Below, one piece after another: positions 12,279-32,200 of a stretch of DNA of 64,000 nucleotides. The DNA is from Muricea muricata (lineage: Eukaryota; Cnidaria; Anthozoa; Malacalcyonacea; Plexauridae). The stretch is taken from positions 5,343,341 to 5,407,340 of the forward strand of contig OY979730.1 of NCBI GenBank assembly GCA_963855995.1, in the 5' to 3' direction. Under the pieces are notes generated by a model that did no database searches, was not told the DNA's origin, and saw only the letters and a program-made list of their open reading frames with translations. Both the position numbers and the translations under genes were made by a program. The number at the start of each line of letters is the position of its first letter. The stretch's first letter is position 1.

Positions 12279-12357
12279 TAAAATATGTTAAAAGAAGCGT
12301 CTTCAGACATTAAAAAGTAATAATAAAGAACGTTTAAAAAAAAACTTTATTAAAAAC

Positions 12358-12395
12358 GTCCAGACGTTTCGCCGGTTAGGGCTTCTTCAGTGGAC
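12358..12395 (-). ncRNA. Hammerhead ribozyme motif, PLE-B left arm
   Basis: Read on the minus strand: gtcca, ctgaaga, a gcc-ctaacc-ggc hairpin (stem II), gaaac, gtc, tggac. Stem I gtcca/tggac gives 5 bp, and the cores CUGANGA and GAAA are both intact. Stem III is reduced to palindromic acgt, as in other PLE hammerheads that are thought to act as dimers (family knowledge). Cleavage would follow gtc. Confidence 0.75.
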
Positions 12396-12539
12396 TGATC
12401 TTATAGTAATATTCTTTTCCTTTGTACATGATTATTGAATAAATTAATGACTATCCACATGATTAAAAATAACTTGATTGAACTCTTGTACTGTTTATAT
12501 TAAATGCTAATAGCACGTCCTACACAATTTTCATAATAT

Positions 12540-26200: not shown

Positions 26201-29200
26201 AAAATATACAATCTAAGAGACAAGGAGGATATCGCAGACGAAGAAACACTTCTCTCAGCCGCTCACATTCCTCGGTGAAATACTTCCACGTAGATGATAA
26301 CTGAAATGCGCGATTCAACATGGTGACAACAAGGGCTTTCTTGTAGTTCATATCAACATTACTGTCGAAATGAAGCAACGATCCAGTGTTCGTGGGCTTG
26401 ATGTAAACCTTCGATTCGAGTCGATCATCTTTTCTGATTAATTCTGCGCCAAGGAATGGTAGTTTGCCATCGACTTCAATTTCCATCGTGAACTGTAGGG
26501 AAGGATGGCAGTTGTTGAGGGTTGACAGGAATTCATTTGCTGACTTTATACTAGATTGCTTTGTGATAGTATCATCCATGAATCGTCGGTAGAAAGAAGG
26601 CATCTGTTTCTGCTTAACCAGTCGTTCTTCAAGTGAACACATGAACGTATTTGCTAGCAATGGACCAAGTGGAGAATCCATAGCGACTCCATCAACTTGC
26701 TCATATAGGCTGCCATCGAACTGGAACAACTGATGTTTCACCGCCAAGTTCAACAGTGTCTCTAGATCAGATCTCTTGAGGTTTAACTTGTAGGTCTTGT
26801 TAAACCAGTTGTTTTTGAAGGCTTTCTTGACTAAAATCTTGATGGTTTCATCAACGGGAACATTCGTGAAGAGAGATGTAACATCGTACGACACTAAGAT
26901 TTCATCTGCATCGACTTTCCCGCCACGGACTTTTTCAACGAACTTTAGTGGATCCATGATGGTAAATTTGTTGATTGATAGAGGTTTCAATCTTTCATCC
27001 AGCCATTTTGCCAACAAGAAATTGTAAGTTCCTGTCGCAGATAGCATTGGTCGCATTGATAGTTGAGGTTTATGGGTCTTTGGTAACCCATAGAGGTGAG
27101 CAAGGCGGGATCCTTTGGGGCACACGCTGTAAAGAACATTTCCTCGTATAGATTGTCTTTCTTCGAAAAATTAGTCTTGTGTAGGGGATTAAAATTCGCT
27201 GTTCCTACTCGTGTTTGCCCAAAAGAAGTCCAAGCATCTTTCGAAAGTTTATACCATAAACTTGAACCAAGTCTTCCAGAAGAGAAAAAGGAACTGACAG
27301 CAACAACTCTTCGTTCAATCGCACTGAATTACATCGCATCCAAGTACACACCCCACCACCAAAATCCCTGTTAAGAGCTCTGAATCAACTAAAGAAACGG
27401 AATGACATTGTCATCACGAAGCCAGACAAAGGGACTGGTGTTGCTGTTATGGATAAGTCGGAATACACGAAATTACTAAGTGAAGCATCTGTTAAGGACC
27501 GGGAGAAATTCAAACCAGTTTCACTTGAGAGAGCAAAGACAAGGGGAAGACCAGTCAAGAACTACCATCCACTGTTGCAGAAAGAGAAACAGCTTCAAAC
27601 CACCGTACGGAAAATTCTGCCAGAGAGAGAAGCGGACAGTGTGTGCCCCAAAGGATCCCGCCTTGCTCACCTCTATGGGTTACCAAAGACCCATAAACCT
27701 CAACTATCAATGCGACCAATACTATCTGCGACAGGAACTTACAATTTCTTGTTGGCAAAATGGCTGGATGAAAGATTGAAACTTCTATCAATCAACAAAT
27801 TTACCATCATGGATCCACTAAAGTTCGTTGAAAAAGTCCGTGGCGGGAAAGTCGATGCAGATGAAATCTTAGTGTCGTACGATGTTACATCTCTCTTCAC
27901 GAATGTTCCCGTTGATGAAACCATCAAGATTTTAGTCAAGAAAGCCTTCAAAAACAACTGGTTTAACAAGACCTACAAGTTAAACCTCAAGAGATCTGAT
28001 CTAGAGACACTGTTGAACTTGGCGGTGAAACATCAGTTGTTCCAGTTCGATGGCAACCTATATGAGCAAGTTGATGGAGTCGCTATGGGTTCTCCACTTG
28101 GTCCATTGCTAGCAAATACGTTCATGTGTTCACTTGAAGAACGACTGGTTAAGCAGAAACAGATGCCTTCTTTCTACCGACGATTCATGGATGATACTAT
28201 CACAAAGCAATCTAGTATAAAGTCAGCAAATGAATTCCTGTCAACCCTCAACAACTGCCATCCTTCCCTACAGTTCACGATGGAAATTGAAGTCGATGGC
28301 AAACTACCATTCCTTGGCGCAGAATTAATCAGAAAAGATGATCGACTCGAATCGAAGGTTTACATCAAGCCCACGAACACTGGATTGTTGCTTCATTTCG
28401 ACAGTAATGTTGATATGAACTACAAGAAAGCCCTTGTTGTCACCATGTTGAATCGCGCATTTCAGTTATCATCTACGTGGAAGTATTTCACCGAGGAATG
28501 TGAGCGGCTGAGAGAAGTGTTTCTTCGTCTGCGATATCCTCCTTGTCTCTTAGATTGTATATTTTCGAGATTTATCAACAAGAAACATCAAACCACAACA
28601 GAGAGTGCCCCTGTAAATCAGGAAGAAAAAGAGAGTGTGTTGCGATTGCGAGTTCCATTCAAGAGCCAAAAATCTGCGGACGTGTTGAGGAGACAACTTA
28701 ATAGCCTATGCAATCTCGTTGGTACAAGAATTCAACCAGTCTTTTCGAGCAAAAAGATCGCCAAAGAATTCCGAATCGAAGAAACGAAGCCACCTCTTGT
28801 GAATCGACAGTGCGTTGTGTACAAATTTCAATGTGATCTGTGTGACGCAGATTATGTTGGCTATACATGCCGACACTTACACCAACGCATTGAAGAGCAC
28901 AAGGGGTCGATGATTGGTCAACACATGATAGAGCATGGTGAAAATACCGCGAGAGTCGATGGTTGCTTCAAAGTACTAAAAAAATGCCGAAGCAAGTTCG
29001 AGTGTCTGTTGTTTGAAATTTAAACAAACAATCGGACTCGATACGTGCTAAGTTATTTACTTAGCTTAAATATTTTATGTATTTTAGTTTAGATTGCCTG
29101 TCTTTGTCTTAGTTTATCTGTTTGTCTGTTTATACTTATTTATATAATAATACGTGTTCATTCTGAATTTTCATTGGTCGCAAGCTGTGTGTTATTAAAG

Positions 29201-32200
29201 TACACACGCACGGATGACGTCAACTGATGGCGTGATCTAATTTAGCTAATTTATTTCGCGGGTCTTCGCATGATTTTTGTCAACTTTATTATAATATAAA
29301 ACAAATAGATTTCATTTTTTTGTGCTTCTGTACTGTAATAGATCACAGATGACGCCATAGCGTGTGAAGAACAAAAAGTCACGCACTCGACTGCGTCTCG
29401 CGCGTACTTTTTTGTTCTTCACACGCTATGACGTCATTTGTGATCTATTACAGTACAAACGCGCGCAAAAATGAAATCTATTTGTTAAATATTGTATTTT
29501 GGCGCGTCTTAGCGCATAAATTTGAACTTATTAACTTGCGCAATTGATTAAACGTCATTTGTCAACGTCATTTGTAAACGTCATTTAAACAATCTTAACT
29601 GTAAAAATTATCTATATTTGTTATTTGAACTTGATAATGAGGCCATGATGGCTTCGAAACGTTGTTCTTCAATAAAACTTTTATCGCTTACGTTTGTTGC
29701 GAAATCTATTTCAAAAAGTTTGTTGATAAAAATACTTTTTAGCTTAATAAAAGCGGATTTATTGTCAACTTTGCCCATTTTCGCAATAGAAAATACACAA
29801 ATTGTCATGCTCTGTGTCAACTCTGTGGGAACGACCAGCGCCTGCGTTCTGGCTTCAATTTTCGTCTGCCCACAATGTGGGATGCGCCATCTAGTGTATA
29901 TGAGATATCTATGGATGTAAACAACATAATATCTTGTCTATACAAGTTTGGTACCGATATTACTTTCTAAAATCGTCAGTCTAAAATCTCTATAAAGTCA
30001 CAAGGACTTTAATGGCCAGTCTTTGGTCTATACTTAATAATGACACTCAGTTAATAATGACTTGAATACTATACAAGATAACAGACTTGGGGTCGGATAT
30101 AGACCTCAAATATTATTCAAGATATCATCATAGCCACCGGTTTATATTTATTGTGCTTGCAATTTTTAATTTTTTCTGCCAACCTATGGCGATTTCACTC
30201 TGAATTTCATCTTCCATCAACGTATAAAAATATTACCGTGTTGGATATCAATGGATTGTGTATGTATGGGCAACGATTTTGTTTTTTTAATGCCAATACG
30301 TTCAACCAAGATTTGTCGTAGGAAAATTGCTTCACGATATGAAGTCTTGTTTGCTATCGTCAGATCTACTAACCACGGACTGATCTGCTTGGCTCTTCTA
30401 TCGAAGTTATTCGAAGTGAGACTTGACAGTACGTAAGGATATTTATTTTCTCCAAATCCAAGGCCTGAATTGGGATTCGAATGGACCATTCCCCAATTAC
30501 ACAAACTTTTAAATTTGAAAATAATTTCAGCATAGTTGGAAAGAGCTTCCTAAATTTAGTGAAATCATAGTGTGAAATTTGGTTGTAAAATATTGTAAAA
30601 TGTCGAAAATATAGTAATGTAAAGTTTGCGAATTTTGTATACTTTGGTATTACGCGGGAAAAAGCGCTACCACATGTACATTTCCCCATAGTGCAGTACG
30701 CTTTTCCGTTCGTAATACAAAAGTATACAAAATTTGCAAACTTTACAGGACTGTATTTTCCACAATTTACAATATTTTGCAACCAAACTTCACAATTTCA
30801 CTAAATTTAGAAAACTCTTTCCAACTGTGCTAAAATTGTTTTCGAATTTAAAAGTTTGTCTAATTGGGGAATGGTCCATTGAGATCAACAGGAGCTAATA
30901 ACAGTCAGTATAATTTTGTGTCCTTATCTAACCCACTCAAGCGTGCTACAGTAAATAGTCTACATTCTATTAACAGAAACCAGACAAGTTTTTACTATAA
31001 TGGAATGCCTTCTCTCTACATTTCGCCTTGATTGTCGACTGAGCAATACAGTGTGGGTGAATCTATACATAAACGTCGACCAGTAACTTTGAATAACTAT
31101 AGTCTATATTCCTGTCCTTTTAACTATTAATCGCTATCCGACACCAAACAAACCACTTAAATCTATGCAAATTTTTGCATAGTCTCACAACAGTGATCCC
31201 TAATTCAGGAAAACTTTCGGAAACTGTACAATGTGCTGGAGGATTGAATTCTGCACTCTCAATGCACGATCATTAAACAATAAGGCTGCTGAGTTCGTTG
31301 ACTTTGTTTGCGATCGCAAACCGGATCTCGTTGCAAACACAGAAACCTGGTTTACTGATGATGAATCTGCTTCCAGAGTTCTATGTACTCCAGAAGGTTA
31401 TAAACTCTTGGATTGCCCTCGCCTTGGTCGTTTAGGAGGTGGAACGGGAGTCCTTTTCAGAACTGGCATTATCAATTACCTCTAAAGTTGCAGCCGCTGA
31501 ATTACAATCTTTCGAATACTCCGAATGGAGCATTAGAACTGGTACCCAACACCTTAAACTAATCATTACATGCAGTATAGACCACCGTATTCAGTCAATC
31601 ACCCGTCTCAACTGCTGTGTTTTTTACCGACTTTTCAAGCTTCATAGAGTCTTCCGTTCTTTGCACTGACCGCCTGCTGATCTCTGGCGATTTTGACATT
31701 CATGCTAACATCTATTACGATGTCGATGCTACAAAGTTGCAAGATTTATTCGAAAGCATAAGACTCATTCAACATGTCAGATGTCCGACACACTTTGGAG
31801 GTCATACAGTTGACTTAATTGTGACTCGGCAGTCTGATAAGTTGATTGAAATAACTCCCATAGCAGATTACCTGTTCTCAGGACATTCACCTGTTCTGTG
31901 TCAGCTACAAGTTGGAAGGCCTTCGTGGAAGAAATCTCGCGTTTCGTATCGCAATACTAAGTCTATTAAAGAAGACCTATCGAACTCGAACTTAATAAAA
32001 ACATGTTATAGATGGATCTTAATCAGCTCGCAATTTCTTCTGACAACACGTTGTCATCAGTACTTGAAAATCATGCACGACTGATCACTTAGAACCATCA
32101 CTAAGAGACCTACTGTTCCATGGTTTAACGATGACGTAAAAAGTACCAAACGAGCCCGCAGACAAGCAGAGAGGAAGTGGCGGCGTACAAGACTACATAC

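Follow-up and report, generated by a model that had tools for sequence, protein, structure and literature searches.

In the bdelloid Adineta vaga, the head-to-head orientation is the most frequently observed inverted arrangement of Penelope-like elements (PLEs), and the resulting palindromes are read as products of self-priming in the available text of PMC3846280. The purified Poseidon protein of Anolis carolinensis (PAc) cuts and extends both strands of its AT-rich target in vitro and begins to copy its RNA at two internal sites that bound the tail (PMC11167929, available text). Here, we analyse three PLE families, PLE-A, PLE-B and PLE-C, each of which forms an inverted pair in a 64,000-nucleotide (nt) stretch of the Muricea muricata genome (contig OY979730.1, C15:5343341-5407340 of the 453-Mb assembly in 74 contigs), referred to below as the window. 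In the twin priming of LINE-1 elements, two primers on opposite target strands copy the element RNA and the products are joined; this process leaves an internal inversion of one copy, whereas the insertions described here consist of two overlapping copies and seem to follow the usual route of these elements.

The elements of this genome resemble those of Adineta vaga, as far as the latter are described in PMC3846280, in their inverted pseudo-long terminal repeats (pLTRs), partial tandems and an optional tail on one inverted pLTR (31 bp in A. vaga), in their short target duplications (8–10 bp there) and in their preference for simple AT-rich targets. They differ from them in that many more copies are found, PLE-A and PLE-B are tied to (TA)n tracts, and non-nested arms together with mixed ends favour two priming events. 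With PAc they share the AT-rich target and, probably, cutting and extension of both strands and two internal start sites, the interval between which is the tail, but the insertions described here pair one start site of each kind (PMC11167929). The head-to-head arrangement itself is thus already known, and the part that deserves follow-up is the rule of one tail per pair.

Head-to-head pairs in the window and in the genome

The three inverted pairs occupy positions 12244–14589 (PLE-B), 14678–19174 (PLE-A) and 25385–29729 (PLE-C), and their features are listed in Table 1. In every pair the reading frames point away from the middle, so that the 5'-truncated ends meet and the 3' ends lie outermost. 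In the self-alignment of the window, the arms are 98.1% identical in PLE-B (12278–13424 and 13448–14592, with a loop of 23 nt), 99.6% in PLE-A (14590–16689 and 17162–19260, ends that take in the flanking TA repeat, with further inner arms at 16688–16837 and 16911–17060) and 97.3% in PLE-C (25595–27130 and 27636–29143, plus 25385–25602 and 29485–29698). Among the self-alignment rows listed, no family aligns to either of the others except via the TA repeat. The palindromes reported in the initial annotation are therefore real, and the tail at the left end of PLE-B extends that pair beyond the start at 12279 given there, as the tail at the right end of PLE-C does beyond 29698. The contrast between catalytic cores that it drew holds, on reading by eye, for PLE-A (YRDD) and PLE-C (RFMDD) but not for PLE-B, of which the window covers only the 3' part, without the reverse transcriptase part.

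Table 1. Positions of the arms, ends, tracts and duplications of the three inverted PLE pairs in the window.
Feature	Positions	Strand	Remarks
PLE-B left outer end, 34-nt tail, adjoining TA repeat	12244..12277	-	Read; end pattern found at the same place
PLE-B left arm, 3' end outward	12278..13424	-	Self-alignment
PLE-B centre, 23-nt filler	13425..13447	.	Not significantly templated
PLE-B right arm, untailed end entering (TA)43	13448..14589	+	Self-alignment
(TA)43 tract, common to right end of PLE-B and left end of PLE-A	14590..14675	.	
PLE-A left arm, unit 2395 to 58, tailed end	14678..16913	-	Lacks ~101 nt (284-384) that the right arm has
PLE-A right arm, unit 134 to 2397, tailed end	16911..19174	+	3-nt alignment overlap at joint
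(TA)60 tract at right end of PLE-A	19173..19292	.	
PLE-C target-site duplication, left copy, AAATACTTTTT	25374..25384	.	
PLE-C left arm, untailed end	25385..27130	-	
PLE-C right arm	27132..29698	+	Reaches ~504 nt further 5' than left arm
Insert of 349 nt, private to PLE-C right arm	29140..29488	.	Internal inverted repeat
PLE-C 31-nt tail	29699..29729	+	Also at right ends of L038 and L040
PLE-C target-site duplication, right copy, AAATACTTTTT	29730..29740	.	

An 11-bp duplication, AAATACTTTTT, flanks the whole PLE-C palindrome, its right copy following directly after the tail. The same comparison at 8286 other window positions gave 0 matches, and the 11-bp sequence is present four times in the window. 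Because this target duplication encloses the whole palindrome, both PLE-C arms arrived in one insertion. It should be noted that PLE-C in the window is the only pair with a readable duplication, those of PLE-A and PLE-B being unreadable within (TA)n. The PLE-C right arm also differs from other copies: its 349-nt insert, with an internal inverted repeat at 29290–29391 and 29395–29496 (84%), is absent from the three other PLE-C copies fetched, and it lacks 28 nt present in all three of them.

For the genome-wide survey, the hit tables of the three families, which are samples with at most 40 candidates scored per search, were clustered at 3 kb, and orientation was counted first in 49 of 49 PLE-A, 36 of 59 PLE-B and 58 of 72 PLE-C rows and then in all PLE-B and PLE-C rows. 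Among the matches listed, a head-to-head change was found in 10 of 34 PLE-A, 12 of 37 PLE-B and 14 of 36 PLE-C clusters (36/107 in total), against a tail-to-tail change in none of the 107. At fine scale, a minus-then-plus change was found in 18 of the 20 PLE-A loci fetched whole (out of 33 others; ~10 kb each, two of them cut by the fetched or contig end), which include short inverted arms overlooked by the long PLE-A query. Partial tandems of PLE-A join at the unit boundary. A TA tract directly borders its outermost blocks in 17 of the 20 loci, 13 of which have such a tract at either side. Since PLE-A and PLE-B both insert into (TA)n tracts, the two can share one tract, and they adjoin at two further places on contig C1, at 91.17 Mb and 108.08 Mb.

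The window trio is therefore not exceptional in kind, and head-to-head pairing is the form that these elements usually take in this genome. The arrangement, a known hallmark of PLEs, is common for these families here and is no local oddity as had been supposed. Its attribution to the insertion process, rather than to chance or assembly folding, is supported by genome-wide recurrence with fixed polarity, by the PLE-C target-site duplication and by private arm substitutions.

Tailed and untailed ends

Most 3' ends of PLE-A lie at two points of its 2397-nt unit. Tailed ends stop at 2397, with CTAGCACATTA followed by TATATA, and untailed ends stop at 2334, with TTGCACAATTATA followed by TATA; these points lie 63 nt apart, and the stretch between them is equivalent to what the literature calls the tail. 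A scan allowing at most one mismatch found 379 tailed and 339 untailed PLE-A ends in the genome, and a backward control found 0. A 300-nt 3' query matches only to the tailed end, so the two types cannot be separated by it. Pairing was followed among exact listed ends on contig C1 up to 116.41 Mb, which comprise 100 of the 379 tailed and 88 of the 339 untailed ends (88 of the 100 untailed ends listed).

Of these 188 ends, 98 fall into 49 pairs and 90 are unpaired. The 49 left/right neighbours within 10 kb compare with 0.8 expected by random placement; four right-then-left neighbours also occur in this sample. One end of the pair is tailed and the other untailed in 46 of the 49 pairs (p = 3.4e-11 against independent choice), with the tail on the right in 23 and on the left in 23, whereas two pairs have it on both sides and one on neither. 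The other two families agree with this picture: five of the six PLE-B pairs with both ends readable are mixed (the window pair, L033, L035, L036 and L037), and the PLE-C pair of the window has one tail, inside its 11-bp duplication. A literature search, the coverage of which likely leaves out surveys in subscription journals, found no published count of such a rule.

Arms, joints and the origin of the palindromes

The substitution differences between PLE-A arms indicate where the arms come from. Inverted comparisons, 21 in number and partly overlapping, were drawn from 12 loci and gave 33 differences; none of these (0/33) has both states in other loci, and in direct (tandem) comparisons one difference out of seven does. 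Loci of the young subgroup differ from each other by 2.3 shared variants per kb. Since the arm differences are private, the two arms of a locus trace back to one source sequence, and the candidate explanation that the differences mark two different source elements found no support in the same count. In the PLE-B and PLE-C pairs of the window, every substitution difference within the aligned arms is also private to one arm, as judged against four rows from three loci for PLE-B and up to three loci for PLE-C. This excludes columns 1–469 of PLE-C, in which unrelated centre sequence is forced together, and columns 1572–1578 of PLE-B, in which the tail is set against TA repeat; one 4-nt gap in PLE-C is not private, both states being found in other loci.

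The extent of the arms was compared in 24 mixed PLE-A pairs, 12 from fetched loci and 12 mini-palindromes chosen by an end spacing of ~160–270 nt; window A, L009 and L013 were left out for their two tails, and L010, L011, L012, L018, L021 and L026 for a missing end, a single arm or a tiny arm. In nine of the 24, the untailed arm goes further 5' than the tailed arm, so the pair is non-nested.

As for the joints, 7 of the 19 junctions listed have alignment overlaps of 1–7 nt and the remainder have fillers. Five of ten scored fillers (L014, L021, L023, L025 and L028) hold copies of 13–19 nt from within 100 nt, and none of 300 shuffles was as good. Templated fillers of such kind resemble polymerase-theta end joining. 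The 23-nt PLE-B filler of the window was not found in the L031 copy of the element on the upstream side of the joint.

Four mini-palindromes from separate loci (L041, L043, L044 and L045) are each ~215 nt long in all and have the same joint, at 2257/2261 in the unit of PLE-A. Candidate readings of this joint are a hot spot for stops, a template RNA of short length, or copying as a unit.

We consider it probable that each palindrome represents one insertion, made by paired target-primed reverse transcription from the two target strands and completed by microhomology-type joining. The element endonuclease would cut an AT-rich target, (TA)n in the case of PLE-A and PLE-B, on both strands. Each exposed 3' end would prime synthesis on the element RNA, in most cases from two distinct internal start sites located 63 nt apart in PLE-A, 34 in PLE-B and 31 in PLE-C, so that one end of the insertion would carry the tail and the other would not. 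The two antisense complementary DNAs (cDNAs), each with its own stop point and templated either by a single RNA or by two RNAs of the same source, would then be joined at their 5'-truncated ends, perhaps by microhomology-type end joining. The mixed start sites in 46 of 49 PLE-A pairs and the non-nested arms in 9 of 24 lend indirect support, at the level of sequence, to two independent priming events on opposite strands.

The alternative with the best claim is self-priming, or snap-back, in which one cDNA or antisense RNA folds back and the second arm copies part of the first; it is preferred for the bdelloid Penelope palindromes by the authors of PMC3846280, in the available text, but we consider it unlikely here. 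It would account for the single source of the arms, and the 2257/2261 joint shared by four mini-palindromes could come from a short fold-back. A fold-back copy, though, cannot gain a tail that its template arm lacks, so the 46 mixed pairs are unexpected, and in the nine non-nested pairs neither arm can copy part of the other, so that snap-back is excluded there, if each pair is one event. Of the two mechanisms proposed in the initial annotation, synthesis on both strands with joining therefore fits better, and snap-back is excluded in 9 of the 24 sister pairs examined, not by the pairs of the window. That each pair arose from two separate insertions, or from a later inverted duplication, we regard as very improbable. 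More than one insertion can indeed gather in a (TA)n tract, examples being L009, L028 and the PLE-B/PLE-A neighbourhood of the window, but a single target duplication surrounds both PLE-C arms, tail-to-tail changes are missing from the matches listed where head-to-head changes number 36, and the arms within a locus have one source while young-subgroup loci differ from each other; a later duplication would leave the single tail per pair unexplained. Least credible of all is an artefact of assembly or library (folded reads). The palindromes are known here from assembled sequence alone, but they end at element ends with unlike flanks, their arms differ by substitutions and indels and their two ends by the tail, PLE-C has its target duplication, and the pattern recurs on many contigs.

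Several observations weigh against paired priming. The one-tail rule has exceptions: three of the 49 pairs on C1 are not mixed, the PLE-B locus L029 has no tail, and PLE-A in the window has two, as do L009 and L013. Six of the 24 mixed pairs are nested and nine have arms that stop within 5 nt of each other; these nine near-equal stops exceed the permutation expectation (mean 3.9; 5 of 2000 permutations reach 9), an excess that is also compatible with snap-back or with a shared template end. No window pair is non-nested: PLE-A and PLE-C are nested, and the two PLE-B arms begin at the same template nucleotide, so that snap-back could have produced all three. Five of the ten scored fillers, including that of window B, are not significantly templated. 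Twelve of 210 locus pairs have no shared difference, so a single master source could also give private differences, and one RNA is indistinguishable from one source locus. A plus-then-minus neighbour also occurs in four of the 20 fetched PLE-A loci; in L009, L010 and L028 the plus and minus blocks are separated by a TA tract, consistent with two insertions having entered the same tract separately, and the partner in L014 is a diverged fragment ~3.6 kb off. Finally, the available text of PMC11167929 reports no start-site difference between strands for PAc in vitro.

Given that behaviour of the anole protein, the mixing of start sites observed here calls for an explanation, such as one ribonucleoprotein (RNP) presenting both sites. 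PLE-A has two putative start motifs, CACATTATA and CACAATTATA, that are almost identical and separated by 63 nt. We tentatively suggest, while leaning against it, that a single asymmetric RNP may operate, in which a protein dimer holds one RNA and each of the two start motifs is offered to one cut strand. If this were true, one tailed and one untailed end would be forced, head-to-head would be the standard product, and the shared source of the arms would be explained.

Family membership, neighbouring sequences and significance

PLE-C matches Pfam RVT_1 (E = 3e-10) and PLE-B, in its L032 copy, matches Pfam GIY-YIG (E = 8.1e-7), both above the cut-off. No Pfam reverse transcriptase match was obtained for PLE-A, and no Pfam GIY-YIG match for PLE-A or PLE-C alone. 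The endonuclease pieces of the three families nevertheless align at V-Y, Y-x-G-x-T, R, H and H. The assignment of PLE-A is thus based on this endonuclease alignment, the YRDD core and element anatomy, with no significant Pfam match. The anatomy of PLE-A includes a pLTR structure, in which tandem copies meet at the unit boundary and arms lie inverted; the optional tail at one end occurs in all three families. A single-sequence AlphaFold2 model of PLE-A had a mean predicted local distance difference test score (pLDDT) of 33 and was not used. The search against solved structures gave nothing useful for PLE-A and weak reverse transcriptase matches for PLE-C (best E = 0.01), and the PHROGs search gave nothing useful.

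A hammerhead ribozyme motif in the pLTR is reported in many PLEs and is not required. Neither a strict motif scan nor Rfam found one in PLE-A, PLE-B or PLE-C, in which hammerhead-like core strings are visible by eye; such a motif is reported for PAc (PMC11167929). Outside the three pairs, the sole strict-scan match in the window lies at 22145–22176, within a stretch at 22125–22199 (+) that matches Rfam Hammerhead_HH9 with E = 0.088, below the gathering score. The left flank of L028 seems, by eye, to carry the same sequence in antisense, and the stretch could represent the 3' terminus of a further, fourth PLE.

Several other features were seen in the window. An inverted repeat of ~290 nt (21435–21726 and 23865–24156, 97.9%), with copies ~2.1 kb apart and TA tracts beside and inside it, is probably another mobile element. 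A SUEL lectin domain lies at 20525–20866 (+) (Pfam, E = 5e-10), a direct repeat of ~550 nt at 5485–6038 and 6130–6675 (94.9%), an imperfect palindrome at 30480–30880 (83.9%), and a diverged inverted repeat at 38936–39473 and 44507–44998 (72.3% over 545 columns).

For the origin of inverted and tandem PLE copies, PMC3846280, in its available text, favours self-priming. Taken together, the hundreds of PLE-A ends, the rule of one tail per pair and the non-nested arms of some pairs point to two coordinated priming events on opposite strands. Paired priming gives clear predictions for the purified enzyme, and paired insertion would explain a class of natural palindromes as well as why TA tracts gather them.

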